Shown piece by piece: positions 19,401-50,762 of a DNA stretch of 64,000 nt. Source of the DNA: Tetmemena sp. SeJ-2015 (Eukaryota > Ciliophora > Spirotrichea > Sporadotrichida > Oxytrichidae); contig JAJKFJ010022473.1 of NCBI GenBank assembly GCA_027382625.1, positions 62,001-126,000 of the forward strand, written 5' to 3'. The notes beneath the pieces were generated by a model. That model worked only from the letters and a program-made list of their open reading frames with translations. It ran no database searches and was not told the origin of the DNA. Position 1 is the stretch's first letter; each line of letters starts with the position of its first letter. Position numbers and translations under genes: made by a program.

Positions 19401-22400
19401 TTGCTATTCAAAGTCTCACAAGATATGGGAAGAACTAGTGACTCTTCCAGCTATTATCATTTGGGGTTTGGGAATTCCATTTTTTGCCTTATTGCTTTTG
19501 ATGCGCAGAAGCAAGCAGCTAGACTAAGTTAAAACTAGATCAATGTTTGGGTTTTTATTTAAAGGATATAAATTGCAGTACTATAAGTAGAATTTAATTA
19601 AACAGTTTAATTTATAAAATACAAATTTCTCATCGACTCAAGGTTCAAATGTTTTTTAAACCTACTTTAATTTAATTTGTAGCTAGAAAAATAAATACGA
19701 TTTTTTAAGGACAGATTAATCAAAAAATTAAAAAGATTAAATTAATTCTTCACATTAAACATACCTTGCAAATTTAATGTATTTTGTAAGATTCTTTGTA
19801 CTTGATATTAATAAGCCTATTATAATTCTTTATTAAAAATATCATTATATTTGAATTTTATATCTATTAAAAATTTATGTGTCTACAGTTTTTGAAAAGA
19901 ATTATTTAATCCTAACTATACTATTGGGAAATCATCATAATGTACAGAAAGCTAATCTATATTTTTGTGGCTGCCTTTCTAGCTTCAAATGGGACGATAG
20001 TCCAAGCTCTTATAATCTTCATTATAATCCTAGGCTTCTTAGTCTTAACTTTAAAAACTCGGCCCTTTTCGAATAACGCTCTTAATAATCTAGAAACTTC
20101 CTCCCTCATCACTCAAGGCATCATAAATTTAATTTTTTAATCAAAATAAATCACCATATTTTGTGGAATATTCTATATCCTAAAGTAAATCAAACCGATG
20201 TGTCTTCGACCTCAGGAGAAATCACAGATTCATCCTAGAAAAATACAGTGATTCTCTCTCAGCAAGTGCAAATGTTTTTCTTTGTCATCATAGTCATCTC
20301 AAATAAATTTTAAATGAAATTTCTTTCTATCTCAAACACTTTCTTTCTGGCATATTGGCTTTTTGAATTTTTCTTTGAGATGAGATCTAAGATGACTTAA
20401 AAACTTGCAAAATTTAGCTTATCTTATGTAATCAGGAAAAGTTCAAATTTCCAATTTTATAACTTTTGAGAAGTTTAGAGAATTAAAGGAAAAAATGAAG
20501 ATGCAGGAAACAGGTTTGACAAGAGATTTAATGAGAACCATAGGAAATAAGAATGAAGCTATGGCAGAAATACTTCTTAATCAAAACTAAAGTTCACAGT
20601 AATGCGCAGCAAATCTTGACAGGCCAAAAGGAAATAAGAAAAAGAACTAAAGTTATTCATACTCTTCATTTTGTAGCTTTTGAAGATCAACTCAAAAGAT
20701 ACTGCTATAAAATTACCAAACTTGGGCATGGAAAAGAATCTGAGAAAGGAGGAACTAAAGCTTCATTTATCTTAGAAGGAAATAAGTATTTCATTAGGTC
20801 AAAAGAGCTCGTCTGTCAGAGTCACCAAAAATTGGTCAAAGCTGGAAGTAGGATCTCAAAGCTTTAAAGACAATCTTAGGAAGGTGATTCAAAGTGCACT
20901 CATGTTTTTTATAAGTCAAAATACAGGAGTGCCTCTCCAATCACCGGGATTGAGATATTCTAGCATTCACTATAACAAGAGCACTATTCCCTCTGACAGA
21001 GAAGACCGAGACAAGAAGCGAGTATCCCAAAATATTGAGAGCTATAATTTTATTCTTTGAGCCATGAATCATAATCAGACGAAAATATTTCAGATTTTAA
21101 CAGCCCGAGATTGCTTCTCAAAACTTTACAAAATAAATTAATTTAAACCTCTGAGTTAAAGCTGAATTTTGAAAAAGTTTCTCCCTCAAAAGATATGGAC
21201 AATAGTTTCTTCAACTCGGAAGATGTAAAAAGAAGGTAAAGACTGATATTAAAACAGAAGGAAAAGTTAAAGAGTTCATATAATGCATTAATAATGTAAT
21301 TAACCTTATTTTAAAGAGATAAGAGGAGGCTAAGAGAATAGCAGATCAAATTGAGACTCTCAAATAGCAGCAGGATGAAACTGTGTAAATGATGTAGCAT
21401 TCCATTCAATTTATCATATTTTCTTGAATGAATTCAGTTTTACTTTTAATTTGTAAAGAAGCAAAGACCCAACCCTAAAGCTAAAACTACCTTAAAACAG
21501 AAAATAAAAAAGATGATGAAGTAGAGAATCATTGAACAACTCAAGGAACAGCAATTGGTTAATCAACAACTTCAAGGCAATAAGAAAGGCTCTAAAATAT
21601 AGAGTAATCAATAATCTAACTAATAGAGTGAACATTTTAATTTAAAGTCAAAGAGTTTCAAATTCCCAGAAGATGCAGATACAAGAAGGAAATTATTTTT
21701 AATTTAATTCATTCATATTAAGGATTGATTTAGCCAAATAAAACTTTCAAAGAAAAGAAGCCTAAGTTGTCCCAAAATTCTGGAATGAATTCGATGAGAG
21801 AGGACAACGATTTTGAGCATACCTTCAATCTCCAAGGCTAAAAAACGAATGAGGTTTCAAAGAAGTCATCAATAATTGAACCTAAAGAAGAAGCCCCAAC
21901 TAATTCCATGAATCCATAGGAAATTTAGCCAAAAGAAACTTTTAATCACCTTCGGAATGATAGCTTCTAATATAAAAGTTATTTTAATCGACTCTATATG
22001 GCACGATATCTCATACTTAATCTCAAATTTAGGTTCCTTAATCTGCAAATTATATATTTGTTATTGCATTAGTCAAAACAGCGTTCTAGAGTTTTAAGCT
22101 TCCCTCCTCTAAAATGCATTCTTCGGACAATATTGCAAAAGCATCGAATCCTTATGCAAGCGCCGAGGTATACGATTATCAAGAATCAGATACTCTCAAT
22201 AATGCCTCTAATCCTGCTCAATACAGAAAGGAAAGTAATTATTGTGTGATAAGTTTTAATTTTTAATTTTAAAGTAACGTTAGCGGAATGAATTAGGTTG
22301 AAAAAACTTACTATGATCAAATGACTTCGGCATTTAATTCGGAGCCTACCTCCTCCTAAAAGAGAACAAGCAGTTTGAAATATCCTAATCCTAATCAAGT

Positions 22401-23368
22401 CAACAGCAATCAAATAGAATAGTTATATGGCTTGAAATAATTATAACATTTATAAATGTTCTATTTTATAGTTGAAAAGAGCACTTCCAAATTAAGATGA
22501 AAGAGTTGAGTAGATTATATTTTTAGCTTTTGGAATCCATGCCGACATATAACGGAATAGTCATGCAGCCGCAGAAGAGAAATTTTAAGAAAGTAAACTT
22601 CACAGGTATATCAGATCAGAGTTAGAATAAAATTAAAGAGCAGGAAGTGTCAATCAAATCAGATACCGAAGCCTTGAAGAATAAAGTACCTGATTCTATA
22701 TTATCTGTAATTATTTTTCGGGTGGAGTCTCTCTCGAATTAAGTAAGAGTGGATATGCATCTTAAGAGAGAAGAAAAGAATCCTTGATTGAAAGTTTCGA
22801 CGATGGAGAGAGGTAAGAAGTGAATCCTATCGACTAGGAAACACCAAATAGGTCTGAGGAGCATGTTGCTTTTATAAGAGAAATAGATGAATTCGTTTAA
22901 ATTGAGAACAACTTATAGTCAGACAAAAGATAATCAAACGCAAATCAGGCTCCCTATGACGATTTCTTTGAAGACTTATCCAGCAATTATAATGCTACAG
23001 AATAATCACACTCAGACTACCCATAATTATTATGTTTCCCATAGTAAACAATTGGAGAAAATGTTGATGCTCTCATTCAGGAAGAACTAAATACACCTTT
23101 TTAAATTTATAACCTATGGAAGTTAATTAACGTCTAAGCAGGCAACTAAACCTTTCATCATAAATTAATTATTGATCACATCAAATCTTATATAAAAAGA
23201 AAAGAGCTTTAGAAGTTTTAATTATCATTTAAAATTTTAATTTTGCCTTTGAAATATTTCTTTCTTATGCTCTGGATTTTGGTTGAACTAAGAATACTTA
23301 CGCTAGCACTTTTTGAAGTTAGAATATGCAGAGGAGGAGTCATATGCGTTGACCCATCCTTAATTTGA
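10443..23368 (+). CDS. Gene B: giant membrane protein with beta-helix-like ectodomain and long Gln-rich tail
   Basis: Paralogue of gene A in divergent orientation. Order: a Cys-rich N-terminal region (about 10.45-11.45 kb, spaced C-x2-C pairs); a long beta-helix-like ectodomain (about 11.5-18.4 kb) with recurring GG-A/V-I-Y/F turns; a knot (CPTSVAICEGGSKIGPLPGYW, then GYKGILCTTC) near 18.5-18.75 kb; membrane segments near 18.82-18.9, 19.13-19.2, 19.44-19.5 and 19.94-20.15 kb; then a Lys/Gln/Ser-rich tail to about 23.1 kb. Introns are frequent (for example a 32-nt GT-AG intron just after 12.2 kb), and a 283-bp IES splits the membrane domain. The tail was assigned to this gene because a 20-nt GT-AG intron near 21.03 kb joins the frames; it could be a separate gene. 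The 3' end is uncertain: the last frame stays open to a TGA at 23366, but the end could be earlier, and the last bases overlap the antisense Cys-rich module. Start chosen at the Met before the first Cys pair. Confidence 0.65.
16128..16480 (-). other. Antisense coding fragment nested in gene B, related to gene T
   Basis: On the minus strand a continuous frame runs through this stretch and aligns by eye with gene T at about 63.65-63.78 kb. Shared pattern: YY-x-FSP-x-F-x-K, then VKPG-x2-RT-x-L-x-S-x2-LK, roughly half the residues identical over about 40. On the plus strand the gene B frame is interrupted here, between about 16.04 and 16.45 kb. The simplest reading is a macronuclear-destined segment of another gene lying inside an eliminated segment of gene B. 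A decayed duplicate is possible. The boundaries are approximate and I found no pointer pair. Confidence 0.5.
19602..19891. other. 283-bp IES in the membrane domain of gene B, pointer ACAGTTT
   Basis: ACAGTTT occurs at 19602-19608 and again at 19885-19891. The DNA between is very AT-rich and non-coding. Removing one copy plus the interval joins the frame ending FLFKGYKLQYYK to YYWEIIIMYRKLIY, which matches the same stretch of gene A (YWEIFTIYRKIVFI). There is no GT-AG boundary that does this. Confidence 0.85.
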
Positions 23369-23960: not shown

Positions 23961-24082
23961 TCTTATTAAATATCAAAAAGTCCAAATTAAATCGAGAATC
24001 TATAAAATATTTTAAATGCACACCTCTTATATCTTAAAAGATATAATATAAAAATATAGCATTCCTTTTGTTTTGCTTTTAA

Positions 24083-25188: not shown

Positions 25189-28100
25189 ATGGAGACTAAA
25201 TAATTGCAAGGTATTAAAGTTTCGTCCAAACAGATTATACTTTCGCCTGCAAAATAATTGCCTTCTAATTCAGCCACAAAGAATTAACCCATTTAAGAGT
25301 TTAATCCCATAGTATTAATTTGTTTTGTTACAGAAATTTGTTTATTGACCATAGATGACTATTTACAAGGGAGTGTTTATGTAGCTCAATCTGAGATAAA
25401 ACAAGGAAAGAATGTGTACAAAAAGAGCTCCAAAATATTATAATCTAATTTTTTATTATAATGAAATGTTGGACAGAGGATTGTTGTCAACTGCTGCAGC
25501 TGCTTTGACATAAGCTTAGACGCCTTTGGGATCTCATTCACTAGCGAACAGTGTAATTTTAGGATCTAGTTTGCAGCCAATCAAGAAAACATCAAACCTA
25601 AACTAAGATCTTGTGAGTGCTATTACTCCTAATCAGTCCCCATCCAAATTTGACGATATATCTTTCCTTTCCATTATTTCTCTTCTTTTAGATAAAACAG
25701 AATCGAGTTTATACAACGAGAAGCAGAAGACAGTTAAGTTTAAGGAATCTGTAACTAACACTAACAAATTATCAGTTGCTCCTCTCAATTAACTTAGAAC
25801 TTTTTTAAACTGAGTCTTAATTTTTAAGAACAAATGAAGCAGCGAAGAAATTCAGAAATAATACTCAAGTTAGGAAAGATCATTCCTCTATCATGGACTA
25901 AGATTTGAGAAAGATTCTATAACTCAATAATTCGAGAATAATTTTTATAATAGGGTCTTAATTTTTATGAGAATAGGGAATAATGGCAACATCCTAGAGA
26001 GTGAACTAACTTTTTCAAACAACAAAATTAATAATTAAGGCTTATCTCAACTTCTTCAAAGAGTGAATCTGAACGAAAAGAGAAAGATTGGACCTCTTAA
26101 AGTTATGAGTGGCAATACTACATCAGATAATATCGCTTAGGAAGCTGCTACTGAGGGAAGAGAAATTATTAGTGCTAGGTTTATTTATTTGAAACTATTT
26201 TGATATCATCGTATTCTAATGCTTCCCCGAGTAATTTAAGAAGGAGAGAACCTTACATAGATAGTCAAGAGGTTTAGATCAGAAGTTTTCGATGCAAAAG
26301 TCAATGAGATCTATGAAAAATACGAAGAAATGCTAACATATTATTATAATTAAGAGTAACTGAGAGAGCAGAAGGAGGAAGTGAGATAAAAATATATTTC
26401 ACTACAGAACTCATAGTATAACACTGATGATGAAGATGACCCTCACAACTTGCTTACTAAGTTTGGAAGTGGCAAATCTAGAAAAGTAAAGACTCGAGGA
26501 GTAACTCAAAGGGGTAAGCGATAAATTGGGGAGGTTTAGTAGGATAGACATCAATCCAGTTCGAACATCTTTGAGTAAAAGAACCAGCTAATGGAAACAC
26601 TCAAAGTTAACTCAAACCAAGTTGATTACTTCAAAAAAGGAGGAGTTCAGCTTCTCAAAAATCAATTATCTCATCTTTATTCTTTGTTAAATGTAGCTTC
26701 CAGAGATAGTGCAGACGACTCAATTAAAAAAGAAGCTTGAATTAGACGATCCATAACGCTAGTTTGAAGAGAGGACAAAAAATATGAGTTACTAGGAGAA
26801 AAGGCTCAGCATGGCACAGGAAATATTCGCTCCTCGCAAAAATTCAAGCGATTCTTCTTAAACTTCTGATAGAGGCTAGAACAGATAGCAGCAAATGAGA
26901 GGGAGGAAAATGACTAGAGAAGATATGGAGAAGCAGGAAGAGAAGTTTTTCAACTAAAATAGCAGAGTAGATAAGGAATAAGTCTTTAAGGAACTGCAAC
27001 TTTTTGAAAGACAAAACGAAGAGTCTCTGAAATAGCCAAATGCAGTAGACTTCAACGACGATGAGTTCTTTGAAATGGGCTATAAACTTGACTTAAATGC
27101 CCAACTTCTTGATAGAAAGCCGGGAGAGTTGGTGATTAGAGCAAACCTAGGACTTGAGAAGAACTAAGATACTGAAAGGAAAGAAGATGCGGAGCAAGAA
27201 GATAGTCCTAATAGAAGGAACGAAAGTGGAATTGATTATGACACTATGGAAAATATAGAAGATCTTATAGGTAGTTCTCCTGAGGAAAATTAAAAGCAAA
27301 ACGCTTGGAAACTATCTGATAATGTTAGCTATGATTAATTTTATGCTCAAATATAAAATTGATGCAGTGCTTAAGAAGTAAGCTAAAAAAGGTGAAGCTC
27401 GAGATGGATTCGCATAAAGAGAACAGAAAAAGCTTAAGGAAAAATTAGAGTACTATACTTAAAATATAGAAGAGGAGGGAGAAAACTTAAAGACTGCTCA
27501 AGAAAAGATAAACTTTCTAAAGAATATAGGAAGAACCCCGCTTCAAAGGTAAATATGTTATTGCTTATTCTAAGAAACAATAACCATATTTAGGTTTACT
27601 TTAATGAGCTTAAAGATAAGAAGTATTTGCTGACTAAAGACATTCTCGAGTATGATAAAAGGTTTTTCCAAAACCAGATAGATAAGGTTTCAAAAGCTTA
27701 CCAAGTGGAGATTAGAAATTAGCAAATTCTTGCTAGAGAGAAAGCGATAGAATATGTAGAGCTTAATATGTCTAGAGCTAAAAAATAGCTTGAGGCAGAA
27801 ATGATGTCTATGATAAAATAAGTTGAATACTTTGCTTACGAAAACGAGAAAATGCTTTCTCTGATTGATAAACTCAACAAGAAAATTGAGCATTAGGAAT
27901 CTCAAATTGCGGGATTAAGGGCTTATGCAAAAGCAGAAGAGGAAGAATATGAGTGAGATCATACGGAAATCTTAGAGACTGACAGGATACTGCAGCAAAT
28001 ATTGTAAGAAGCGATGCACAATAAGATGATGGGCATAAATGTAGACTTTGCTGCAGATGTAAAGAAAGATAAGTTACTTAACTAGGTGTTTAACTTATAC

Positions 28101-29155: not shown

Positions 29156-29208
29156 TTGTTGTGATTAGTTTAATTTAATCTTAATTTTTTAACCAGAGGA
29201 TAACTCCT

Positions 29209-30066
29209 TCATTAAGGTTGGCTCAATCTAACTATAATTTGCCTCTCTCCTGGACATTCTCTTTTCACGAGATATGTAATTGTGAAAAATTTGGCGAGCC
29301 ACTTGATCACATTCATATTTTCCTCAATAAGTAGCAAGTAAAATGCACCATTTGAAGAGAGAAGCTAAAACTTAATACAAAAATCAATGCTTCTTTGCTT
29401 GTGGAATAAATTTCATTAGAATCTCGATACCCTCAACTCCTCCTGCCCAAGAAGCTTCTATGCCTTTCTTTTCCTGTGCATCTGCCAATTCTTCTCTAGG
29501 TGTGACCACATATGGAGGATTGAAAATTATTAGATCCACCTTCCCCTCAAGTCTTTATTATATACTAGAGGCTAGCGTTGTCTAAATCATTTCTATTTCT
29601 CCTTTATTATGTATTGCCGTTCTATTGGTTGCCTCTAGTGCCTTGATGTTTATATCAATTCCAAAGTAAACTGTTTGATTGAAGCCTTTTTCATTTAGCA
29701 AGCATTGCAAGCTATTGATGACTACTCCACTCCCTACACTAAGTTATGTAATGAATTTGCTTATGAGATAAAGACTTACCCTATTTCTAGCAAGAATAAA
29801 GGCTATATTTAGTTCACTATGTACTCTAAGTCTAGCTGTAGAGCATCTATTAACAAGAAACTATCTTCACTTGGCTCGTAAACATCTCTGAAATCTGCAA
29901 TCTTCAAATGAGAAAAATCACAGCAAAAGCCATTTGCACTTTTTTCGTCATAGAGTGGCTCAACTTTAAATAAGAAATAAATTATCTTCGTGATAGAATT
30001 AGGGGATTCGTGCTTGCTTCTTTTTCTTTTTATTAATTTTTTATTGACATATTTGCTATTCATCAA
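29209..30066 (-). CDS. N6AMT1: HemK2-type glutamine methyltransferase (eRF1 / N6AMT1 family)
   Basis: SAM-dependent methyltransferase of the HemK2/Mtq2 family, which methylates the Gln of the GGQ motif in release factor eRF1 together with TRM112. Visible: the N-terminal DVYEPSEDSFLLIDAL signature, the SAM loop LLEIGVGSGVVI, the catalytic NPPY in IIFNPPYVVTPREEL, and the C-terminal strand FYLLLIEEN. A 41-nt GT-AG intron follows LEIG; an IES near 29.37 kb lies before the last stretch. Total length is near the usual 210-230 residues plus an unconserved, Lys-rich N-terminal extension of about 50 residues whose start is uncertain. It is divergent from UFM1 with only about 127 bp between the two starts, so they may share a promoter. 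Confidence 0.9.
29364..29391. other. IES in the HemK2 gene, pointer GCT (AGC on the coding strand)
   Basis: Without excision the frame ends at a TGA after IPQAKKH. Removing 25 bp between the two GCT copies (29364-29366 and 29389-29391) gives IPQAKKLLSSNGAFYLLLI, the spacing expected of the family. Confidence 0.8.
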
Positions 30067-30193
30067 TGACAGCTGGCTTTTATTTCTCTTCTTCTTCTGT
30101 GGTTTATTGAGATTAGAAGTTTTCCATGTCTTAAAATTGATTATATGATATAATTGCTAGTTAATTTAATAAATAATTATTGAAATAAGCACA

Positions 30194-30693
30194 ATGGAAT
30201 CAACAGAGTAAGTCTCAGCTTGGTTCAAAGCATTTTACGATAGCATACTAAAATAAAGATTCTAATTTTATATGTAGACAAGTGGATACAAAGACAGCTG
30301 AAAATGAGAACGCTCCTCAAGAAGATGAAGCCACTCAAAGCAAAAAGACCCTCCAGCAAAAGATCACCTTTAAGATCACCAATTCTGCAGATCCAAGACT
30401 TCCCTACAGGACGTAAGTAATCATAAAAAACTCACTCAGCATACTCAAATTATTGTGTAGAATTTCCGTTCCTGAGAGTGCTCCATTCAGTGCTTGCGTT
30501 AAATTTGTTGCTGAACAGTTCAAGGTTAACCCATAAACAGCCGCCATCATCACTAATACAGGTGTGGGAATCAATCCTCTCTAGACTGCAGGAAAAATAT
30601 CTCAAAATATTTTTATTAATTCAAGGAACTATATTCTTGAAGCATGGATCAGAGCTAAAAATGATTCCTAGAGATAGAGTGGGTAGCAATTGA
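30194..30693 (+). CDS. UFM1: Ubiquitin-fold modifier 1 (UFM1)
   Basis: Small ubiquitin-like modifier conjugated in the UFMylation pathway (UBA5, UFC1, UFL1), which acts mainly at the ER and ribosome. After excising two introns and one IES the core reads ITFKITNSADPRLPYRT, ISVPESAPFSACVKF, AAIITNTGVGINP, FLKHGSELKMIPRDRVGSN. The glycine exposed after maturation is present, and the propeptide is Ser-Asn where the human protein has Ser-Cys. There is an N-terminal extension of about 30 acidic/Gln residues not found in human UFM1. Introns: about 73 nt after MESTE and 48 nt after PYRT, both GT-AG; the third break is an IES. Confidence 0.95.
30590..30628. other. IES in UFM1, pointer AGGAA
   Basis: AGGAA at 30590-30594 and 30624-30628. 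Removing 34 bp restores NPLQTAGTIFLKHGSEL, matching UFM1. The segment starts with no GT donor, so it is not a canonical intron. Confidence 0.9.
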
Positions 30694-32259: not shown

Positions 32260-32470
32260 TTTCTAAAGATATATATCTAATCTAAATAAAACTCATATCC
32301 ATCTCAATAATTATGAGTGATTAAAAATGAGTTTAAATAAATGCAGAGTCAGCATCCAAGCAGAGGAAGTAAAGAAAGAGTTAATCTTCGCATCTTTTCT
32401 TTCTCCGAATTCCTTGCTATCAGATTTCTCAAGCTCTCCTACAGAATAGATATCTGTGAGACTATAGTTC

Positions 32471-33009
32471 TCAGATGTACTTAGGGTAGTCAATTTTGAA
32501 CTGAGCAAGAATCTTAGCATTGTCATTCTTGATGTTCTCATCGTATTTCCTGAGGCATTCTTGAGATTTTTCAAGGCTGTTGCCAGTGTTAGTCAAGCAA
32601 TCTTCTAGTAAGAATCTGGAAGAGTCTCTTACTCTGTGAAGGTAGCTTTCAAACTTGCCGAAAAGCTTTTGTCTCTCGAGTGATCTGCACTCTCTGATCT
32701 TAGCCTCGTTTGTGAAAGAGTCGTCGATGTGCTTTTCAGGGTAGCAGTTCTTATCAGCGTTGGCCAAATACTAGCTCTCAAGTTTATTCACAAAAATGTG
32801 CTTAATTATTGAGTGAGTTTCTTGAGTCCGCTGCTCAGAGGGCCGTCAACGAAGATTTCATTGAGAAGACGAGCATTCTTCTCACCTGGAGATTGACCAA
32901 GCACCTCAGTGTTATGGATGGTGTTGATACGGTTGAAAATCTAGTTGTATTTATCTTGGAGCATATCATCCAAAACCTCACGAGAGAGTCTGTACTGAGA
33001 GGGATTCAT
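32471..33009 (-). CDS. Conserved-looking small protein, function unknown
   Basis: After removal of one IES the frame gives about 165 residues, from MNPSQYRLSREVLDDML through LKKLESQYLANADKNCYP and LERQKLFGKFESYL to AQFKIDYPKYI and TGA. It is predicted largely helical and charged, with four cysteines (KNC, REC, EDC, QEC) that could form pairs. Codon use is balanced and richer in GC than the intergenic DNA, which supports a real gene. I do not recognise the family; the Cys spacing would allow a mitochondrial intermembrane-space type protein, but that is a guess. Confidence 0.7.
32781..32820. other. IES, pointer AGTTT
   Basis: AGTTT at 32781-32785 and 32816-32820. Removal of 35 bp joins FVDGPLSSGLKK to LESQYLANADKN on the minus strand; the unexcised frame runs into TGA. 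Confidence 0.85.
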
Positions 33010-38787: not shown

Positions 38788-38849
38788 TTTCGTGTCTATT
38801 GGTGTGTTTATTTAGTGCTTCGATTAGCTAAGATTATTAATAGTAAGAT

Positions 38850-40312
38850 ATTAGCATTGAATTTGCAAATTTTTAATAAAATACTTCTCAATAATTAGTA
38901 GCATGCTCAATATTCAGATTATTTAACTAGTTGCAAATTTTAATTATCTTACTCTCGTATAAAATTACTCATAAAGTTTAAAGCAATCTAAGAAGCTTCA
39001 TTTCCAAAAACTACTCAGATTGATATGCCTGAAAATCGAAAACTATATTCAAAAAAGTTGGGCCCTCGAACTTGTGTGGCAGCTTTCTTCAAGGACTCAG
39101 AATATTTGCTTGGAAAGAATGACTATCGATAAGCTTCCTCTTAGGATCTATTATGAGGCTCCCTGATTACTATTGTGTATAGTCATTACCAATTCTTGAA
39201 CGAGATAGAGAAACTGCCTTAGTGCAATACCTATGATGGCTAGGCAGAAAGTCTCAGATAGTCACACTGCTGATGGAGCTTCCACACTCTTCACACATCC
39301 AGAAATACTTCAAAGATTACCTGGGTATATCTCAAGCCTTCCCAAATATCAAAGCTGTGCACAAAGTTTCAGACTTCACATTATTCTTAAGAATGCAACG
39401 TCGATTTAAATAAAGCTTGTCGAACCCATAGCAAGAGCTGCGCCTACTTGAGTCTGCTTGTGCGATCATCCCTCATAGTGATTATGCTGCACCTCATACT
39501 CCTCGAGCTATCAGGTAATGTTCAGAATCATTATTGGTAATTCCTTTTCTCTTAACCCCTATTTGTATTATCTTTAAAGGCAAGGCGAAATGAATTCAAA
39601 GTTGATGAGCACCTAAAACCAGAAGATCCCCGAAAAGTAATTCAAGCTCGTTTGCGATCTTCCACCCAAACCAAATCCGTGAGTTGCACCAATCAACAAG
39701 TACAATAATTCAAAAAGCAATTGAATTAATAGCGGCGATATAATATCCGGCAGCTAAACATATTCTTGAACTTCTCGTTCTAGCTTATCATTGAAAATGA
39801 GTCTTCAAGTAAGGGCTCCAAGTAGTTAGCGAAATATTTAGCAAGGCCACGACATCGGCACTCTTCTCAAAATCAATTCATCAAGAGGCCACCAAGACCG
39901 AATAAAGCATTCACAGACACGGATTCTTTCACTCTATGAACTTGATTAGCATATCCACTCTGAAAAATGGGATAGACTTACGTTTGCTGATGCAGCGATG
40001 AAAGCAGAATGAGCAGCAATCCTCAGCGAATATATCCTTAAGCGTAAAGTGGAACATCCAGCATCATTAAAATAATAATAATTATATCCTTATAAACTTA
40101 AAAATATTCAACTCCTCACCGTTTTTATTAATCCATTAATTATTGAGGTGCTTCACTCCTCATTCCATCTTAATTAATATAACTGTAAATTCCCTTTATA
40201 AATTTTAAAAATGGAGGTGACTCTTACTGGCTCTTCAGCTCTGGTAGTGCAGATTGTGTCTTGGATTCTACCTCAACCTCTTCTCGAGGCTAGGTGCTAG
40301 TTGCTTATGAAT
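38850..40312 (+). repeat. Left arm of a 1.46-kb palindrome
   Basis: The reverse complement of this arm is found at 40481-41942. By eye the arms match throughout the places compared; the only difference found is one extra T near 39,141 in the left arm. The left arm begins 62 bp upstream of the adenosine kinase start. Confidence 0.93.
39025..40012 (+). CDS. Gene-like sequence in left palindrome arm, function unknown
   Basis: ATG at 39025 opens MPENRKLYSKKLGPRTC. Coding-like stretches follow in shifting frames: LLMELPHSSHIQKYFKDYL, LRLLESACAIIPHSDYAAP, RRNEFKVDEHLKPEDPRKV and a C-terminal HIHSEKWDRLTFADAAMKAE with TGA at 40010. A candidate GT-AG intron of about 70 nt, or an IES with pointer AGG, lies near 39.52-39.59 kb; other junctions are unresolved. 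I do not recognise the family. Several overlapping open frames exist because TGA is rare, so the joined product is tentative. Confidence 0.4.
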
Positions 40313-40480
40313 AATAGAAGAACTTAATAAGTTGGAAGAAATGAAATTGCAAGATAAACAAACAATAGCCCAGAAGTCTACAAGGATCTCATCTACGTAG
40401 AAATAATGCAGGTACAAACTTAAAACTCTGTTCTTCAGCTACTAATTTCAAAAAGATATGATGTCATACAAGATTAGTCA
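40313..40480. other. 168-bp spacer of the palindrome
   Basis: Single-copy AT-rich sequence between the two arms. No gene, pointer repeat or RNA motif is evident. Confidence 0.8.
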
Positions 40481-41942
40481 ATTCATAAGCAACTAGCACC
40501 TAGCCTCGAGAAGAGGTTGAGGTAGAATCCAAGACACAATCTGCACTACCAGAGCTGAAGAGCCAGTAAGAGTCACCTCCATTTTTAAAATTTATAAAGG
40601 GAATTTACAGTTATATTAATTAAGATGGAATGAGGAGTGAAGCACCTCAATAATTAATGGATTAATAAAAACGGTGAGGAGTTGAATATTTTTAAGTTTA
40701 TAAGGATATAATTATTATTATTTTAATGATGCTGGATGTTCCACTTTACGCTTAAGGATATATTCGCTGAGGATTGCTGCTCATTCTGCTTTCATCGCTG
40801 CATCAGCAAACGTAAGTCTATCCCATTTTTCAGAGTGGATATGCTAATCAAGTTCATAGAGTGAAAGAATCCGTGTCTGTGAATGCTTTATTCGGTCTTG
40901 GTGGCCTCTTGATGAATTGATTTTGAGAAGAGTGCCGATGTCGTGGCCTTGCTAAATATTTCGCTAACTACTTGGAGCCCTTACTTGAAGACTCATTTTC
41001 AATGATAAGCTAGAACGAGAAGTTCAAGAATATGTTTAGCTGCCGGATATTATATCGCCGCTATTAATTCAATTGCTTTTTGAATTATTGTACTTGTTGA
41101 TTGGTGCAACTCACGGATTTGGTTTGGGTGGAAGATCGCAAACGAGCTTGAATTACTTTTCGGGGATCTTCTGGTTTTAGGTGCTCATCAACTTTGAATT
41201 CATTTCGCCTTGCCTTTAAAGATAATACAAATAGGGGTTAAGAGAAAAGGAATTACCAATAATGATTCTGAACATTACCTGATAGCTCGAGGAGTATGAG
41301 GTGCAGCATAATCACTATGAGGGATGATCGCACAAGCAGACTCAAGTAGGCGCAGCTCTTGCTATGGGTTCGACAAGCTTTATTTAAATCGACGTTGCAT
41401 TCTTAAGAATAATGTGAAGTCTGAAACTTTGTGCACAGCTTTGATATTTGGGAAGGCTTGAGATATACCCAGGTAATCTTTGAAGTATTTCTGGATGTGT
41501 GAAGAGTGTGGAAGCTCCATCAGCAGTGTGACTATCTGAGACTTTCTGCCTAGCCATCATAGGTATTGCACTAAGGCAGTTTCTCTATCTCGTTCAAGAA
41601 TTGGTAATGACTATACACAATAGTAATCAGGGAGCCTCATAATAGATCCTAGAGGAAGCTTATCGATAGTCATTCTTTCCAAGCAAATATTCTGAGTCCT
41701 TGAAGAAAGCTGCCACACAAGTTCGAGGGCCCAACTTTTTTGAATATAGTTTTCGATTTTCAGGCATATCAATCTGAGTAGTTTTTGGAAATGAAGCTTC
41801 TTAGATTGCTTTAAACTTTATGAGTAATTTTATACGAGAGTAAGATAATTAAAATTTGCAACTAGTTAAATAATCTGAATATTGAGCATGCTACTAATTA
41901 TTGAGAAGTATTTTATTAAAAATTTGCAAATTCAATGCTAAT
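40481..41942 (-). repeat. Right arm of a 1.46-kb palindrome
   Basis: Inverted copy of 38850-40312, ending at the sequence complementary to ATTAGCATTGAATTTGCAAA. Beyond both ends the sequences diverge at once. Confidence 0.93.
40781..41767 (-). CDS. Inverted second copy of the palindrome gene-like sequence
   Basis: Mirror of the left-arm gene on the minus strand, with the same MPENRKLYSKK start and AAMKAE end. The 1-bp difference near the start shifts the reading frame there relative to the left copy. The two copies are convergent: their 3' ends face each other across the spacer. Confidence 0.4.
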
Positions 41943-42603
41943 TTCTTAATATTTCAGAGAATCAATTGGATTATAGAATAATTTATTCTCTACTGGTATG
42001 AGCATCAAATGATGTGATTCTTATTCTCTTCAGATAAAATCTCTGAAAAAGGCGAGAAAACGAAATTTATAATAAATTCTAATTATATCCAATAATTTCA
42101 TTTAGATAAGCAGATTTAAATTAATTCTCTTCTATAATGATTAAGACACAAATAAAAATTAGGAAAAATAATATCAAAGCAGTTGCTAAGACTAGTATAT
42201 TCAAAGCAAGCAGTACTACTACTTATATCATCTTTTATATAATGATTAAAGATCTAGTCAATACTATGAATCGACAAGTCATATCAAAGTATGATCATGG
42301 GTTTGGATACTAAATACAAGTGTTTGTATTAAATATGGTAGCAATTTGAGAATGTAGTAGAGAGATCAGAATTAGCATGGTTGTGTCCACACTCACCGCA
42401 ACTCTTGGTCACGGTTCAGAACAGGTCTGTTGTTATCATCATTATCTCTAAACTACTTCCTCAAAAGCTCATGCATTCACCTGCGCTTCTCAAAATGCTC
42501 AATGCCTAAGTTAGCATGTCTGCATCTTGAGATGCGGCCATGAGTGCGTGAGTGGTTGAGTATATAGCTCGTATTAAGTATTAATTTTTAAATTAATTAT
42601 AAT
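41943..42603. other. Mostly AT-rich intergenic DNA with one coding-like patch
   Basis: About 41.94-42.35 kb is AT-rich and non-coding. At 42.36-42.57 kb base composition rises, and the minus strand reads RISRCRHANLGIEHFEKRR, then after one TGA codon MHELLRKQFRDNDDNNRPV. No family is recognised; it may be a stray macronuclear-destined segment. Confidence 0.35.
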
Positions 42604-43542
42604 TCAAAGCAGAGGAGCCAATTTATAGTTCGCGAGGAGGTGACTCTCAAAGTCAGCAGACACCTTTTCCCAATCAATAAACTCCCAAAAAGAGTTAACA
42701 TAGGCCTCTTTGTCTCCTTCGTAAAAATAGTCATAAGCATTTAAATGAAATAGTAAGCAGAGAAATAGGCATGCTCCCAGAGATCAAGACCTAGAATAGG
42801 GAGGCACTGAACTAATGCGATTCCTATAGTATGAAGTTAGTTAAGTATTGAGATTGTGAAGAGAAAGTGGTATTACCATGCATGAGAGTATTATCTTCAT
42901 TGTTTGTCTGAGTGATGACAAGTTGCTTGTCCTTAGAAAGTCCAAGCCATACCCATCCTGGTAGAACTCTGCTCAGAACAACCTTCTTGAAACTTTCTTT
43001 GAAGCTGCTGAAGTCAGTGAAGTGCTTGTTGATAGCATCTCTTAGCTAAATTATCAAAAGTTAAGGGAAGATTTTCATCTTAATGGGTGATCTTGAGTTT
43101 TAAGATAATTCTAGATTGGCAAAGTCTCCATATTTGTTTCTTTATAAAATTTTCTGCTAACTTACAGCTCCAGTGGGCTCATTGACTTTAATTTCTTCTC
43201 TGTTCTTGAGAGTGCTAAAGAAGAAGAGGTGATTGAAGAGAGCTCCAATAGCGTGTCTCAACTCTAGGTCGTGGAATCCTGCAGTCTCTTGGCAGGTATC
43301 AATATCCTCATTCTGCAAATCTTCATCTTCCTACAAAAGAAATCTTAATCTGATTACTCATGCTCAGGAGCATTTAAATAAACTTGCTTAGTTTTTAAAT
43401 TCCGTACCTCAAGATGCTTTTCAATTTCTTCAATAGCCTGCTTGACAACAATATGTTGATGCAGTCTCAAATGCTCAGCCGAAATAAAGGGGGCAAGATT
43501 TTTTTGAGTGATAACACTTTCTGCGTCCAAATATCTTTTCAT
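42604..43542 (-). CDS. Iron/manganese superoxide dismutase
   Basis: Converts superoxide to oxygen and hydrogen peroxide. Visible after excision: NLAPFISAEHLRLHQHIVVKQ with the first metal-ligand His region, HAIGALFNHLFFFSTL (second His, like FNHxFYW), GWVWLGLSKDKQLVI, and LPILGLDLWEHAYFSAYDYF with the Asp and His ligands in D-L-W-E-H. Length fits the family. Two GT-AG introns (124 nt after EPTGA; about 55 nt after TLMHG) and two IESs interrupt it. The C-terminal motif resembles Fe-SOD, but metal use cannot be decided by eye. No clear targeting peptide precedes MKRYLDAESVITQKN. Confidence 0.88.
42734..42759. other. 20-bp IES in the SOD gene, pointer TAAGCA
   Basis: TAAGCA at 42734-42739 and 42754-42759. 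Removing 20 bp restores LWEHAYFSAYDYFYEGDKE; unexcised, the metal-ligand motif and the conserved VNSFWEFIDWEKV are in different frames. Confidence 0.88.
43331..43358. other. 26-bp IES in the SOD gene, pointer CT
   Basis: The segment looks like a 27-nt GT-AG intron on the minus strand, but splicing it leaves a frame that hits TGA. Removing 26 bp between two CT (coding-strand AG) copies gives LNAPEHE joined to EDEDLQNEDIDT and an open frame into FNHLFFF. Confidence 0.65.
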
Positions 43543-43684
43543 TGATTCTGCTCAAATTTTATTGAATTTAAATAACTTATCTAAATTTAAATCACTCTAG
43601 CAATTAAAATCAGTCAATCCCCTTATCTCGGAGCTATACTAACTTAATCTTACAAAGCTACTTATATAACTTCTTTAAGTTTTC

Positions 43685-45505
43685 TCAATTGTTTAATATA
43701 CTCATCCCATTATTCATCATAGTTTAGCTCACACCACCTCCGAATCCCTGCGCCATACTATTCTGCTGCTGTTAGCTTTGATGTTATTGTTATAGCTGCT
43801 GATACTGTTGCCTTAAACCTTGAACGGAGTTCTCTTGCATTATTTTGTCAAAATACTTCTTGTTTTCAGAGAAGGTGTCGCCCAAAGACTACTTATCTTT
43901 TATGCCTCGATCTATTCGCCTGCTCAAACCAATCAAGCTCCCATAAGAAGGCCTCAAATCTGGAGATAGATATTACTATTATTGTTGCTGTTGTTGTGAA
44001 TTAATCTAAGTATTATTCATTGGCATGTTTATTGTAGACATGCTCTGGGAGAGTGGTTGCTGGTAATAAGGAAGTCTCTCATGCTACTAGACTAACCTGT
44101 TTTGTGATAAGTTGTATTCTCTGTTTAATTGGCCAGTTGTTTGACCTGCAAGAGTATGAGGCTGATTAGTCTAATGTTATTGCCCTTGCCTCTAAACTAG
44201 TCCAGGTTCAGGATAAAGTGCAGAATAAATTTTCTGGGTGTTCATGTCCACTTGGTAATGGTTAGACTCTGGCCGCCTGCCTGAGGTGTCTAAATGCTTA
44301 GTGGTAACTGCCATAAATGCATTCAATTGATTGTTGTAATTTTACTATCCTGCATTGAATTACTAGCTAGGCAGTTGAGCAGTTGGCTTTGGATTCATAA
44401 GCAAGGAGGGCTCATTTTAAAGATTGTTAGAGTTTGGGGCTAGATTTTGTTAACCCTTAAATGGAGATTCTTAAATAAAAGGAAATATAGTAATCTTTGT
44501 AGGACTGAGAGACCACAGAGTTAAGACGCTGAGAAGTGCCTACAGTAATGAATGTATCTCTAAGCTGTGCTTGATCCCTCAATATATCGTCTGTTCTTCT
44601 AAAGTTCCCTTAATTTGCTTGCCCTTAGTGGAAGGGGCTAACTCGAGAACCTCTCACTGAGCCTCCATGGTTATCCGTATATGTCGATAATGGCAAAGGT
44701 GGATCATTTGGAACATAAGTCGCATTAGGATTACTTGTCTTTTACATTATGTAATTTAAAGATACAAATTCTACTTTAACATATCAGGTTGTCCAGAAAA
44801 AGTAGCGACTTCTTATCTCTGGGAATTCATCTGGCAGTTTCTAGTCAAAACCAAGGAGTCTTCTTTTATCTCTAACAGGTTTCTAGTCTATACCATCTAC
44901 CTGTAAGATGTCTAATGAGTGAGGATTATCTCTGTTGAACAGTCGGAAGTCAGTGTTGTTTTAATTTTAAAGCACCTAATAATTAATTTATTTAAGTTCC
45001 AAATGACTTTATTTCTATTATCAAAGTTTGCGCGATAATGTGTGGAACCATTCTCCATCATTTGCTTGTACTTCTTATTGTTTTCTATTTCGTATATTGG
45101 CTTAGGCTTATAGTCCTTTATTAAGGGATTAAGAGTTTGATTAAGAAACTCTTTTGGATTTGATGAATGAGGATTCCAGTCTTGAATCGTTTGATTTACA
45201 GTTATATATAAAGTTTAATATATTGTGAGTTTCGAAATGCTATCTCTTTGGAGAAGGAGGCTAGTTTGGATCAGCTCTTCGAACAGACACCACCTATCGT
45301 GGAATAGGATTTCTCATAGTCTGAAATGAATGGGTTAGAATGAGAATTGCTTACCTGCTAGTAGTTCTGATTTATGTTTGAGTAATCAATTATCTCAGGT
45401 AGTTATTCATACCTCTAATTGTAACCTTACTGACCTAGAGAATGAGTTATTCATTAGGACTAAAAGAGATAGAGAGAAACAATTTTTATAAAACTTACCT
45501 TCCAT
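43685..45505 (-). CDS. Gln-rich protein of unknown function
   Basis: Starts MEG at 45505 with a GT-AG intron inside codon 3, divergent from the next gene with 175 bp between the starts. Read in pieces: YEQLPEIIDYSNINQNYQQ, MRNPIPRQVVSVRRADPNQP, FRLFNRDNPHSLDILQVDG, then long Gln/Asn/Ser-rich tracts and a C-terminal SLGDTFSENKKYFDKIMQEN, GLRQQYQQLQQQHQS, QGFGGGVSQTMMNN and TGA. Poly-Gln is encoded by mixed CAA/CAG/TAA/TAG. A 34-nt intron near 45.33 kb is clear; other frame changes are unresolved. Probably largely disordered; function not recognisable. Confidence 0.6.
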
Positions 45506-45680
45506 TGACCCCAAAATAAATTAACTTTGTTTAATCGCATGTCAAATTATTTACCTTTGGTGTAAGATTTGTTGTTGATAATTCGCAGTATATTAGTTTG
45601 TGAACATTAATTAGGCCTTTGATAGTAGTGATTTTCTTAAGTTAGTCTAATATATTTGCAAATTAGCTTCCAACGCTCAA

Positions 45681-48237
45681 AATGAATGCCTCTTAGCCAT
45701 TCTCACCACAGAACTTCACAAATATATATGGAGACCAGTCTGATCTCAGGAGGCAGAGACTCCAGATAAGTCACAATCTTCTCACCAGCGCACAGAGAGA
45801 TCACGGAAGAGGAGCGGGGAGATATCTAGACACTTCCAGCATATCATCTAAGGCTCTCACTGCCAGTAACTTGAAGTCAAGACCTTAAAATAATTTTTAA
45901 AGGTGTTTATATATGTAGACCAGGGTCAGCGGTTAGAAGAAGAGAGGATAAGAAGAATCATCAAATGCAGCATTAAATGCTCAGACCCAGTTCTTCCAAG
46001 TCTAAGACAACCACTCACTCCTCACTTCAGATCGGAGACATCCTCTTTAAGTCTAAAGTACCAAATGACGTGGCTCTGAAGGTGGAGAGAGATGAATCGC
46101 CTCGCCACAACTACTGGGCGGATCAGACACGCAAAACTCACATCCCTGCGTGGGCTCGCTGCCAGACTTGCAAGATGTACTACGACAAAGACAAAGAGGC
46201 TCTCTTCGAAGAAGGTACCAAGCATAAGCTTTTAGTCAACTAGCTATCATTCACATTTAGAGTAGATAAATGATTGAATATAGAGTGAAGTCAATATATA
46301 GTAGAGGAGAACAAACTTCTTCGAGTGCAATCTAATAAGCAGACTAAGGAAATGTCTCAGTTAGAAGACTTGCTTAACAGGCTAATGAGTTCTCAAACTC
46401 TCAAGAAGGAGGATTTGAAGGAGGCGAGAGAATCAATGTTCGTAACTGAACTCAAGAAAACTATCTCGAACCTAAAATAGGATGTTGCTGACAGAGACAA
46501 AACTATCCTTAACTTTGAAAGAGACTGCAAGATTACATTAGCTTATTTAAGGTCTATATGATGATATATTATAGATAACAACCCTCTACGAACATAAGAA
46601 CCACATAAAGGTGCTGGAGGAAGAGTGCTAAAGACTCAGAGCAAGAACAGAACAAGCAATTAAATTCGCAAGGGAAGTTGACTACGAAAGAATGTAGAGA
46701 ATTAGTGAACAATAATATAATACATTTAATAGAGAAATGTGGTGTAGATGCAGAAGAAAATGCAGCAGTAATAAGAGAACCACAACTCTATTTGCTAGGA
46801 CTATGAACAGCAACTTTCTGAACTTAGATCACAAGTTTAAGATAGAGATGACCACATTCAAGTTCTTTAAAACAATATGAAACGTTTTTACCTATGTTTT
46901 ATATTCTTGAAATGCAAATTGCTTAATTCAAGCAAGACATCAGCAAGAAAAAGCAAAAGATTGAAGGACTCTAAGCAGAACTCAAAGATATGACTGAACT
47001 TGCGAGATGAACAAATACAAATCAACGAAGGCTTAAGAGCAGAAATCTCAGAACTAACCAACTAGAATGAAATCCTTACAAAGATGCTACCACTCAAGCC
47101 AGAGTAGGAATATTGATTTTAATCTCTAGCAGTTATTTATCTTTTTGAAGGAGTATATCGAAGATGTAAAGGAGAGAGACACTAAGATTTCGGAGCTTAA
47201 GATAAATCTTTTCATAAAATATCTATCTTTATAGATTTAAGGGTATCATAGAGAACAAAGAGTCTGAGCTGACAAAACAAGATTCAACGGATCAGACTAC
47301 TTGAAGGAGACCTTTAGGATTTAAACTCTAAAGCATATAGAATTATAGAATGTATCCCTCTCTTAAAAGCATGAGATTGCAGAGAAAGCCTCTTAAATAA
47401 GTTATTTAAAGTTTAAAGTGCAAGATTTATGATGATTTATTTGGAGTAGACGAAGCGAATGCTTGAGGAAAACTTATCTTAAAACAGAAAAGACAACTAG
47501 GAGTAGGTTGCAACTCTTCGAGCTGAGTGGCAAGTTATGAGAGAGGAGATGAGCGCTTAATCAACTGCCTTGAGATAAGAAAAGGAAGCACTTAATAGAG
47601 AGGTTGCTGACCTTAGAATTTCTCTCAAATCTGAGACTGAAACTAAATCGAACTTGCAGAATGAATTAAGAGACGTGAAAGCATTAGAAAAATAAGTATC
47701 AATCAAAAATAGTGAACTACAATCAAATCTAACTCGAGTTGAAACTGAGAACTAAAAACTCAGCAACCAAATCTAGGCACTCAAAGATTAGATAACCTAA
47801 TTAGATAGTGAGAGACTTTATAATTATTTTTATTGAGAAGTATTTTTTTGTTGAATTCTTTAGTTACAATAAAGCATCCTTCATTCATAGGCAGAGCAAG
47901 AGAGACTTGAGTAGGAGCTTTTCAGGATATAGGAAAACTTCGAAAAGGTGAAGTTAGAAATTTCTCAAAACGAGGACATGAATATAAGTATAGTTCAAAA
48001 TAGATAGCAACCTGAGCAAGACGATAAGCCTGAAGAAAGCTAAGTATATGAGTAAGAGGAATAGGCACCGATTAAGAGCCAGAAAACTGTTCAATCGATA
48101 AAATCGATGAGAGATTCAGGGGCTGGCCCATTGAGTAAAAGATCAGTTGCACAATTCGAAGAAGTGAGAGATCATTAAAGCTTTAAGACTAAGATTTGGT
48201 TGAAAATAAAGAGCAGATTCAGGAGGAGATTTTGTGA
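45681..48237 (+). CDS. Coiled-coil protein dense in very short IESs
   Basis: Start MNASQPFSPQNFTNIYGDQ at 45681. A conserved-looking N-terminal domain (GDILFKSKVPNDVALKVERD, NYWADQTRKTHIPAWARCQT, CKMYYDKDKEALFEEGTKH) includes a C-x2-C pair. Coiled coil follows (VEENKLLRVQSNKQTKEMSQ, TLYEHKNHIKVLEEEC, EKEALNREVADLRISLKSE), then an acidic tail and IQEEIL with TGA at 48235. At least four well-supported IESs lie at 45880, 46261, 46995 and 47106. Further frame changes near 46.55, 46.74, 46.88, 47.2-47.3, 47.82 and 48.17 kb imply more, some as short as 11-17 bp. Family unknown; a cytoskeletal role is only a guess. Confidence 0.65.
45880..45921. other. IES, pointer AGACC
   Basis: AGACC at 45880-45884 and 45917-45921. 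Removing 37 bp joins ALTASNLKSRP to GSAVRRREDKKNHQ and continues open into the C-x2-C domain. Confidence 0.87.
46261..46305. other. IES, pointer AGTAGA
   Basis: AGTAGA at 46261-46266 and 46300-46305. The 39-bp unit contains an in-frame TGA; removing it joins HKLLVNQLSFTFRV to EENKLLRVQSNKQ. Confidence 0.82.
46995..47012. other. 13-bp IES, pointer TGAAC
   Basis: TGAAC at 46995-46999 and 47008-47012, only 8 bp apart. Removing 13 bp avoids the TGA at 47008 and joins LQAELKDMTE to QIQINEGLRAEISEL. Confidence 0.72.
47106..47152. other. IES, pointer AGGA
   Basis: AGGA at 47106-47109 and 47149-47152. Removing 43 bp joins LTKMLPLKPEQ to EYIEDVKERDTKISEL and removes a TGA. Confidence 0.78.
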
Positions 48238-48321
48238 AGAACATATCCCTTTGAAATCTTTATTATAACTTTTAATATTTCCTTCTGAGAAGGAAAACAG
48301 TTTTTATAGATAAATTGTAAA

Positions 48322-49905
48322 ATGTTTAATGTGTACAAACATGACCACGTTTAGCAAGAGCTGTAACAGCAACTGGAGCATGTGACTCTTCAAGATAAGC
48401 TGAATAAATCGCTCTTAGGTAATGATTTGATAGATCAAGATTTCATTTCTATCTCTAGAGAAGACATTATTATCCTTTTAAAATTTAATTTATTGAAGAG
48501 GAATAAGCTTTCGAAGTAATATAATGAAAGGATAGCAAGTTTCGTGAAGAATATGCTTACAAAGCCGGTGAAGATTTAGAGAGAGCAGCACATCAGTCAA
48601 GCAACAGACCCAGACTTTAGATTTAAGCAGTCTGTACGCTTGGATTCAAGCCAGATCATGAGAAGGCCGACCAAAGAAATGCGCTTCCAATCCAACAACT
48701 TAGAACGTATAAGAGTAAGTGATACTTTTAGAATTATTCATGCATAATAGGAAGCAATAGACTAGAATAAGTAATTGATAACTGAACCTGCTGAGTTTCC
48801 TAAAGGAAACAATACCCAGGCAATCCTAAATCTAAGGCCATATGATAAATAAAAACTAGTAGACCCGAGTAACCCAGCATTCAAGTTCAAAGCCAACTCA
48901 GGAATGGAGAGAGTCATAGATGCAGTTTAGAATAGTAGGAACTTAGCTCCTCATGACTCAATCAATTAAACAGTTCAATTGAAGAGTAACATATCTTCAA
49001 AGAAGATTTTGTTGAAGCACAAGAGCTATGTTAATAGAACTCTTAATGTAAATTCTACTTCGATATCTCCAAGAGACTTGCACTCAGGCTTACATCAAAA
49101 GACTCACTTCAAAGCCGTTTATGAAATGTTTGTAAATCCTGCTAGTGGAGTAAACTAAGTTCAAGATGAATCTTTGAAAAGAGCGATAAGAATGGCACCT
49201 TCAATTGAGCAAGCTAAAACTTAAGCATACTTGAATAACTAGTTTAAATTTGACTAAAAAATGAATGTAAGCTATTTAATTAACTCCTTTCTTGCTAATA
49301 AGTGGGACAGTAAAGGTTACACTTCCTTGAATTAAGCAAACACTAGCTAAACATTTGCGAATGGAAATAGATTCAAAAGTGAAAACAAGAGCATGTCGGA
49401 GGGAGTAAATGAGAAGGAGTTGGCAATTCAGCTGTTGAGAAACTGCAACTATATTCGTTCCTCAAAGCGAAACATTAGTCTTGATAACTCAGTATCTTAG
49501 TATACTCTTAATGATTACCACCTTAAAAAGCATTCTCTTATTAGAGATATAAGCTAGTACAAGAATCTCAAAAATGAGAGAGAGGCCTATGCCTCGGGAA
49601 ACTACTCTCATGCTCAGCAATCTCCAAATGGCTAAGGCAAACTTAACAAGACTCTCTTGCTTGTTTAAACTTCAAAGTCTAAACTTGATCCTTACGAAAT
49701 GAATATCTATATCAAGGATTCAGATAGTATGGTCAACTCTAATAATAAATATAACAGCAATTCATCTGCGCAAAGCAAACAGTTCACTCAAAAGCGATAG
49801 TCGCATGGCATCATTGGAAATAATCCCTCTTTAATGCCCTCACTCCCATTAGTTAATTTAGGAACATAAATTGAGTTACGATAGACTTTGATTAGAGTTT
49901 TGTGA
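48322..49905 (+). CDS. 527-residue disordered basic protein, uninterrupted
   Basis: One frame of 528 codons from MFNVYKHDHVQQELQQQ to TLIRVL and TGA at 49903, with no intron or IES, using many TAA/TAG as Gln. The N-terminal 70 residues are helical and charged (DFISISREDIIILLKFNLL); the rest is rich in Ser, Asn, Gln and Lys without repeats or known motifs. It lies 84 bp after the preceding gene and 48 bp before the next, all on the plus strand. Function not recognisable. Confidence 0.8.
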
Positions 49906-49953
49906 AATGTATTAAAGATTAATTGATGATAATTTAATAATATAAAATATAAA

Positions 49954-50762
49954 ATGAATATAAGCAAGAGAATTTTCATGCTTGCAAAACTGCAAAATGC
50001 TGCAGTCACTAGAAGCACTTTCCTTCTTCAAGCGCCAGTGAGATTCACTCACGCACGTGGATACAACGATTTCTATGATGGACACGGGAAAATCTTCCAT
50101 GAAACTAACATGGCTCTTATGAATGCTAAGGAAACTCCTCAATTCCTTTACATAATCAATAAGTATGATACTTCGATATTTTTATTATTCTAAAATTTGA
50201 AGTATGGGTATCAAATGACTGACACTCAACTCGCTTACGCTTTCAGCTTCATTGGAAAAAGAAATCTAGACAAGGATAGCGGCTTCTGGGAAACCATTTT
50301 CCCAGCTGTCAAAAAGCAACTCGCCACCCTTGATAGAAACTGTACTCGCTCTCTATTTAAATACTTTTAGTTAGCTAAATTTTATTTGCTCTCTATTCCA
50401 CTTCATTGAGGGAGCAAGTTTGTTGAAGATTTAGGACAATGAATTTTGGGAGCTCGTAGAGCAAAAACTTGTCGATGAGCGCCTTCACAGATACTTCACT
50501 CTCGAAAAACTCACTGAGACCCTCTGCCTCCTTGCTGAGGTCGGAAATCAAAAATTCGATTGAAGTTTAGATTATTGATTAAGGAAGAGGTTCAGATGAG
50601 CTGATCGACATAGTTGAGAAAACTCTGATCAAGCATAAACTCGCCATCACCCCAGAGATCGCTGACAAGGCCAGAGAAGGATTTCGTCAAATCAACAAAG
50701 GCAGTGAAATTCTCTTCAAGGTCCTCGATGACCCAACCGTCGAGCTTCCTGCTCTCGAGTGA
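49954..50762 (+). CDS. Probable mitochondrial protein, ciliate-type, function unknown
   Basis: After excising three IESs the frame gives about 225 residues. The N-terminus (MNISKRIFMLAKLQNAAVTR) is basic, hydroxylated and lacks acids, like a mitochondrial presequence. Then: FHETNMALMNAKETPQFL, KYGYQMTDTQLAYAFSFIG, FHFIEGASLLKIQDNEFWEL, HRYFTLEKLTETLCLLAEVG and IADKAREGFRQINKGSEIL, ending PALE and TGA. The repeated helical units resemble the helical repeats of organellar RNA-associated proteins, but I cannot name the family. The fact that three excisions each restore a sensible sequence is good evidence that the gene is real. Confidence 0.8.
50161..50206. other. IES, pointer AAGTATG
   Basis: AAGTATG at 50161-50167 and 50200-50206, with AT-rich DNA between. 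Removing 39 bp joins PQFLYIINKYG to YQMTDTQLAYAFS. Confidence 0.88.
50348..50397. other. IES, pointer GCTCTCTATT
   Basis: The 10-bp repeat GCTCTCTATT is at 50348-50357 and 50388-50397. Removing 40 bp joins LATLDRNCTRSL to FHFIEGASLLKIQ. This is the longest pointer seen here. Confidence 0.9.
50543..50586. other. IES, pointer GGAA
   Basis: GGAA at 50543-50546 and 50583-50586. Removing 40 bp joins LCLLAEVG to RGSDELIDIVEKTL and removes a TGA. Confidence 0.82.

Follow-up and report, generated by a model that had tools for sequence, protein, structure and literature searches.

AT-rich, repeat-bounded gene interruptions in a hypotrich ciliate contig read as pointer-flanked internal eliminated sequences of germline DNA

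Why are several genes in a 64,000-nucleotide stretch of ciliate DNA (bases 62001-126000 of contig C3147, hereafter the window) broken by short AT-rich intervals bounded by direct repeats? A first-pass annotation had proposed that these are internal eliminated sequences (IESs) of a spirotrich micronucleus, each flanked by a repeat, or pointer, of which one copy survives. From searches of the 146.2-Mb assembly (5213 contigs) to which this contig belongs, we conclude, with a probability of about 0.96, that the window derives from the micronuclear (germline) genome of a hypotrich ciliate and that the AT-rich intervals in its genes are IESs excised together with one pointer copy. This organization is of a kind already known in hypotrich ciliates. 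The IES and one flanking pointer copy would be removed from the DNA as a new macronucleus develops, and their removal would join the gene segments in frame. IES removal would be carried out by transposase-type excisases and RNA templates.

The main evidence comes from contig C5026 (10,801 bp), which has a telomere at bases 9-28 and an open frame of 2262 codons and is a somatic chromosome. Together with C2611, a near-twin that is 99% alike, it represents somatic DNA left among the germline contigs of the assembly. When the assembly was searched with bases 600-9900 of C5026 (40 of 108 candidates scored), two of the 132 matches were the query contig and its twin C2611, and the other 130 were short pieces; paralogues may account for a few matches at 79-83%. 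The germline pieces lie on C3338, C2288, C4208, C3259, C4313, C4540, C2416, C721, and other contigs, some of them on two contigs. Since they are out of order and partly inverted, the germline gene is scrambled. Five germline stretches provided 56 pairs of neighboring pieces, 8 of which repeated a junction, leaving 48 distinct pairs. In 34 of these, the two pieces touch in the somatic sequence, and every such pair has an overlap there of 2-15 bp, with a median of 5 and no case of 0 or 1. The DNA separating them in the germline measures 4-1042 bp (median, 65.5), has an AT content of 0.63-1.00, and is absent from the somatic chromosome. At all 34 junctions that could be read, C5026 retains one pointer copy; the pointers vary in sequence and consist of just TA in only two. 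DNA-level excision with pointers is therefore how this genome works, and the germline interpretation proposed earlier is borne out by a telomere-capped somatic chromosome that lacks such intervals. Alignment to macronuclear DNA had been suggested as a check, and exact loss of the interval with one pointer copy kept was indeed seen, but at C5026 rather than at the window loci. For the window's own intervals, we infer removal at the DNA level in the same way.

Several features bear on the origin of the DNA. Contig C3147 is 164,904 bp long, far larger than nanochromosomes, and the AT content of the window is 0.66. Long frames stay open with TGA as the sole stop. One UAG codon of an NDUTT15-like gene aligns to glutamine in 75 of 79 homologues, and two UAG codons of an adenosine kinase gene, both at variable places, align to glutamine in 4 of 15 and 0 of 15 homologues; from open frames only, we infer that UAA also encodes glutamine. 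Counting both strands, the assembly contains C4A4C4A4C4 67 times; nine of these occurrences are at position 1 of a contig, and at least two contigs (C334 and C508) end exactly with the pattern. UAG read as glutamine and C4A4 telomeric repeats are hypotrich traits; in Euplotes, UAG does not encode glutamine. The best adenosine kinase match with a species name is from Stylonychia lemnae (70% identity); among the matches listed, the closest protein shows 92% identity across 70% of the query length. Scans of the window for transfer RNAs and Rfam families gave no matches. An origin in another ciliate whose IESs are TA-bounded or differ in some other way, such as Paramecium, Euplotes, or Blepharisma, is scarcely credible, given the variable pointers and scrambled germline pieces at C5026, the reading of UAG, the repeats at contig ends, and the Stylonychia match.

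Within the window, boundaries were fixed by homology. The clearest case is the NDUTT15-like gene (49954-50762), whose raw DNA matches its homologues in three frames. Removal of 50161-50199, 50348-50387, and 50543-50582 (all on the + strand) yields a 229-residue protein that aligns without gaps over 229/229 residues (83% identity) to P0121, a protein encoded on a 1344-bp contig, and without gaps over 182 residues to the NDUTT15 chain 8gym_tf, from a solved complex I of Tetrahymena. With a second NDUTT15 chain, 8b6f, the alignment spans 181 versus 182 residues. Among ten homologues checked, two align gap-free to the joined protein, and the other eight need between one and seven gap letters. The first interval (39 bp) has the pointer AAGTATG and a junction that is gap-free to both P0121 and 8gym (P = 0.0033); the second (40 bp) has the 10-bp pointer GCTCTCTATT (P = 0.0010); and the third (40 bp), with the pointer GGAA, gives LAEVGRGSDEL as in P0121 (P = 0.079). 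GATT, taken from automatic gene models as the third pointer, was rejected because it leaves seven residues too many.

Three further excisions restore the sequence of protein families. In UFM1 (30194-30690), removal of a 48-bp GT-AG intron (30413-30460, + strand) and of a 34-bp IES with the pointer AGGAA (30590-30623, + strand; P = 0.022) gives a gap-free UFM1 alignment of 84 residues. A possible 34-bp IES with the pointer TAG near the N terminus (30241-30274, + strand; placed by frame only) was also removed from the query and lies outside the aligned part. In HemK2/N6AMT1, a 25-bp IES with the pointer AGC (29364-29388, - strand; P = 0.23) restores AKKLLSSNGAFYLLLIEEN with no gap at the junction against the N6AMT1 structure 6kmr, and removal of a 41-bp GT-AG intron (29739-29779, - strand) restores LLEIGVGSGVV. 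In the iron superoxide dismutase (Fe-SOD) gene, a 32-bp IES at 42721-42752 (- strand; P = 0.076) is bounded by TTAC (GTAA on the + strand), and its removal gives a Pfam score of 106.6 bits. TAAGCA (42734-42753), the boundary named by the first-pass annotation, leaves four residues too many and scores 98.6 bits, 8.0 lower; against the structure 1y67, the scores are 101.5 bits for TTAC and 94.3 bits for TAAGCA. Two GT-AG introns of the same gene, both on the - strand, lie at 43046-43165 (120 bp; joining PTGA to LRDAINKHF) and 43331-43407 (77 bp). The statement that excision restores the family sequence thus holds for UFM1, HemK2, and Fe-SOD, the last with TTAC in place of TAAGCA, and GT-AG introns do coexist with IESs in all three genes, as had been claimed. 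Elsewhere, a gene for a flavin adenine dinucleotide-dependent oxidoreductase of the DAO family (30853-32260) appears by eye to be broken by GT-AG introns only, with no IES.

The remaining fixed boundaries come from a large transmembrane gene of beta-helix type on the + strand, which has a head-to-head paralogue on the - strand at the left edge of the window. Three excisions restore sequence common to both copies, two of them with a difference of one residue. An IES of 340 bp with the pointer TACTAT (19579-19918, + strand; repeat copies at 19579 and 19919; P = 0.0099) joins the gene to read GYKLQYYWEI, one residue shorter than GYRKELFYWEI in the paralogue. The ACAGTTT pair proposed earlier (19602-19884) was rejected, as it leaves 19 residues too many at this place. 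A 30-bp IES with the pointer ATCA (20120-20149, + strand; P = 0.096) gives a gap-free match to the paralogue (SLITQGITIFCG and SIMACALTIYCG), and a 33-bp IES with the 8-bp pointer ATCTCAAA (20296-20328, + strand; P = 0.0013) matches it with one residue of difference. Near 20183, the same gene has a single-base frame break that looks like an assembly indel, not an IES.

Nine excisions are thus fixed, six by outside proteins (UFM1, HemK2, Fe-SOD, and three in the NDUTT15-like gene) and three by the paralogue to within one residue. They provide a yardstick for hypotrich germline DNA. The AT content of the nine intervals is 0.78-0.93, compared to 0.66 for the window. As a chance test, we determined how often, around random positions of the window, an equally long repeat with that lag occurs no more than six bases away. 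Single pointers gave P values of 0.0010 to 0.23; the combined P value was 7e-6 for the six excisions placed with outside proteins and 1.3e-8 when the three paralogue-fixed ones were included, figures that are somewhat optimistic because boundaries were chosen after the alignments had been viewed. Some breaks could instead be assembly errors or canonical introns whose edge repeats arose by chance. Consistent with this, the one-base frame breaks at 47275 and near 20183 fit single-base indels, and 5-bp repeats within 12 bases are shared by mismatched flank pairs in fractions of 0.34 and 0.32. Chance nevertheless fails to account for the nine fixed excisions as a set, and especially for the repeats of 7, 8, and 10 bp. 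This account is rather unlikely, although it is expected to hold for a minority of 14 further intervals placed by frame only.

Several observations weigh against our conclusion. At C5026, 14 of the 48 distinct neighbor pairs make no contact in the somatic sequence; being uninformative, they were dropped. Four of the nine single pointers have P values above 0.05 (AGC, ATCA, GGAA, and TTAC). A frame break near the N terminus of HemK2 could not be placed, and the HemK2 query starts behind it; likewise, it is uncertain where a third Fe-SOD intron ends, and the five adjoining residues have no partner in 6pro. Pointer tests based on codons only, with two controls, performed no better than the controls. 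Finally, the assembly holds no second copy of the gene stretches searched (19602-20600 and 42400-50800). Without a somatic copy of these stretches, interval loss at the window loci is not directly seen, as would also be the case if the intervals stayed in somatic DNA and were spliced out of the transcripts as non-canonical introns bearing terminal repeats. The presence of true GT-AG introns in the same genes also fits such introns. However, the same type of interval is absent from telomere-capped C5026, and GT-AG, GC-AG, or AT-AC ends fit none of the nine fixed intervals in any register. An intron origin is thus contradicted for the genome through C5026, but not at the window loci, and we regard it as very improbable.

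The limits of codon-based evidence were apparent from automatic gene models built on codon usage with a bonus for repeats, for which a shifted second repeat copy served as the control. The real score was 776. Seven positive offsets gave 743-760, which is 17-33 lower, and eight negative offsets gave 770-818, six of them above the real score. Negative offsets land in AT-rich DNA, where repeats are easily found, and are therefore an unfair control. When boundaries were set blind to repeats, the common repeats exceeded those of mismatched pairs in length by no more than 1.3 standard deviations (116 and 70 deletions). These models, with their many candidate IESs, were unsupported by the shift and mismatched-pair controls and were dropped, and because of these failures, homology was used instead.

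The 14 frame-guided excisions comprise 11 in a coiled-coil gene, those at GAGAATA and AGTTT, and the TAG interval at the UFM1 N terminus. The coiled-coil gene (45682-48240) becomes one frame of 709 codons after 11 repeat-flanked excisions and a single-base skip at 47275. No homologue of the joined protein was found when the 7996 candidates with the most common words were scored, and the 11 boundaries are thus proposals resting on frame. Eight of them, all on the + strand, are probable IESs: 45880-45916 (pointer AGACC), 46261-46299 (AGTAGA; removes an in-frame TGA), 46530-46572 (AGAT), 46693-46742 (TGTAGA, with the 35-bp TAGAGAA interval an equal alternative), 46863-46903 (TTCTT), 47102-47150 (GAGTA), 47197-47236 (TTAAG), and 47816-47857 (CTTTA; removes in-frame stops). 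Three weaker ones on the same strand are possible IESs, namely 46986-47004 (AGAT; AT, 0.58), 47330-47384 (AAAGC; AT, 0.67), and 47425-47438 (ATTT; 14 bp). The single-base frame break at 47275 looks like an assembly indel, not an IES. Elsewhere, two probable IESs of 35 bp are suggested by the reading frame, one at 25934-25968 (+ strand; pointer GAGAATA, placed by eye) and one at 32781-32815 (- strand; AGTTT on the + strand); the protein joined across the latter gave no Pfam match, and a join across the GAGAATA interval that started in a different frame ran into a stop.

With nine fixed and 14 frame-guided excisions between about 19579 and 50586, the earlier count of at least fifteen IESs is plausible, although the fixed ones number only nine. 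That annotation had also named eight repeats, without coordinates, and we chose gene-interrupting pairs of each. All eight occur as pairs inside genes, but several of the boundaries were wrong. Homology confirmed three of the eight, namely AGGAA (30590/30624), AAGTATG (50161/50200), and GCTCTCTATT (50348/50388), whereas two, ACAGTTT (19602/19885) and TAAGCA (42734/42754), gave way to TACTAT and TTAC, which fit better. GAGAATA (25934/25969), AGTTT (32781/32816), and AGACC (45880/45917) are present as pairs in genes and placed by frame only. Since two of eight named pointers were better replaced by a nearby repeat pair, frame and repeats alone do not suffice for reliable pointer calls, and errors are to be expected when pointers are listed by eye on that basis.

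The transmembrane pair raises a second question. The paralogue carries a 31-bp GT-AG intron (window positions 325-355, - strand) within about two codons of the TACTAT IES of the other copy, a possible intron/IES exchange seen as a single case in one paralogue pair. Because the stretch has few introns and many IESs, such a coincidence can also arise by chance. Intron/IES exchange is discussed in PMC9797194 and PMC1805493. As in the spirotrich DNA polymerase alpha interconversion described in PMC1805493, direct repeats lie near the intron; unlike that case, ours is a single paralogue pair in one window and possibly due to chance.

The organization found here resembles that of the Tetmemena sp. 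and Oxytricha trifallax micronuclear genomes as presented in PMC9797194, with variable pointers, one copy of which is kept, between macronuclear-destined sequences and IESs, many IESs and few introns per gene, scrambled loci, and nanochromosomes. We found no mechanistic difference. The micronuclear assemblies reported there measure 237 Mb for Tetmemena (N50, 14.7 kb; GC, 32.17%) and 496 Mb for Oxytricha (GC, 28.44%), whereas the assembly analyzed here measures 146 Mb.

The nine contigs with C4A4C4A4C4 at position 1 start exactly with this 20-bp telomere. For the two that were tested, C739 and C4311, no near-identical second copy was found in the assembly, and these two were set aside; telomere-starting contigs may be germline sequence to which somatic ends have been joined. 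C739 also harbors, at 9765-9900, a short repeat resembling a miniature inverted-repeat transposable element; this repeat recurs many times across the assembly and has an inverted counterpart on C739 itself, about 560 bp distant.

Apart from its genes, the window contains a large palindrome. Positions 38839-40312 and 40481-41953 are inverted copies that are 99.8% identical, with arms of 1473 bp and a spacer of 168 bp. Used together as a query, with 40 of 84 candidates scored, the left arm and the spacer had 59 matches, distributed over 34 contigs. Both orientations are present on at least 21 of the 34, and the + arm comes first in 21/21. The copy on C2147 is 97% like the window copy. On C2005, arm-to-arm identity reaches 99.93% over 1395 bp, but the arms are 77% identical to the window copy, from which they differ without codon rhythm; on C1879, 391 sampled arm bases are 99.0% identical between the arms and 77-78% identical to the C2005 and window copies. 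The three copies compared thus differ by about 22%, and the arms within a copy are 99-99.9% identical, a value that read polishing may have raised. The many dispersed copies identify the palindrome as an element family and not a one-off assembly error. A thin literature search, which covered PMC9797194 by whole words without inflected forms, found no description of it. We tentatively propose that 38839-41953 could be a copy of an undescribed germline palindromic element with arms of about 1.4 kb round a short spacer, near-identical within copies. If so, the arms would be copied from each other at each move (fold-back replication) or continually homogenized by gene conversion. This family may be a more novel item than the IESs and may merit separate study.

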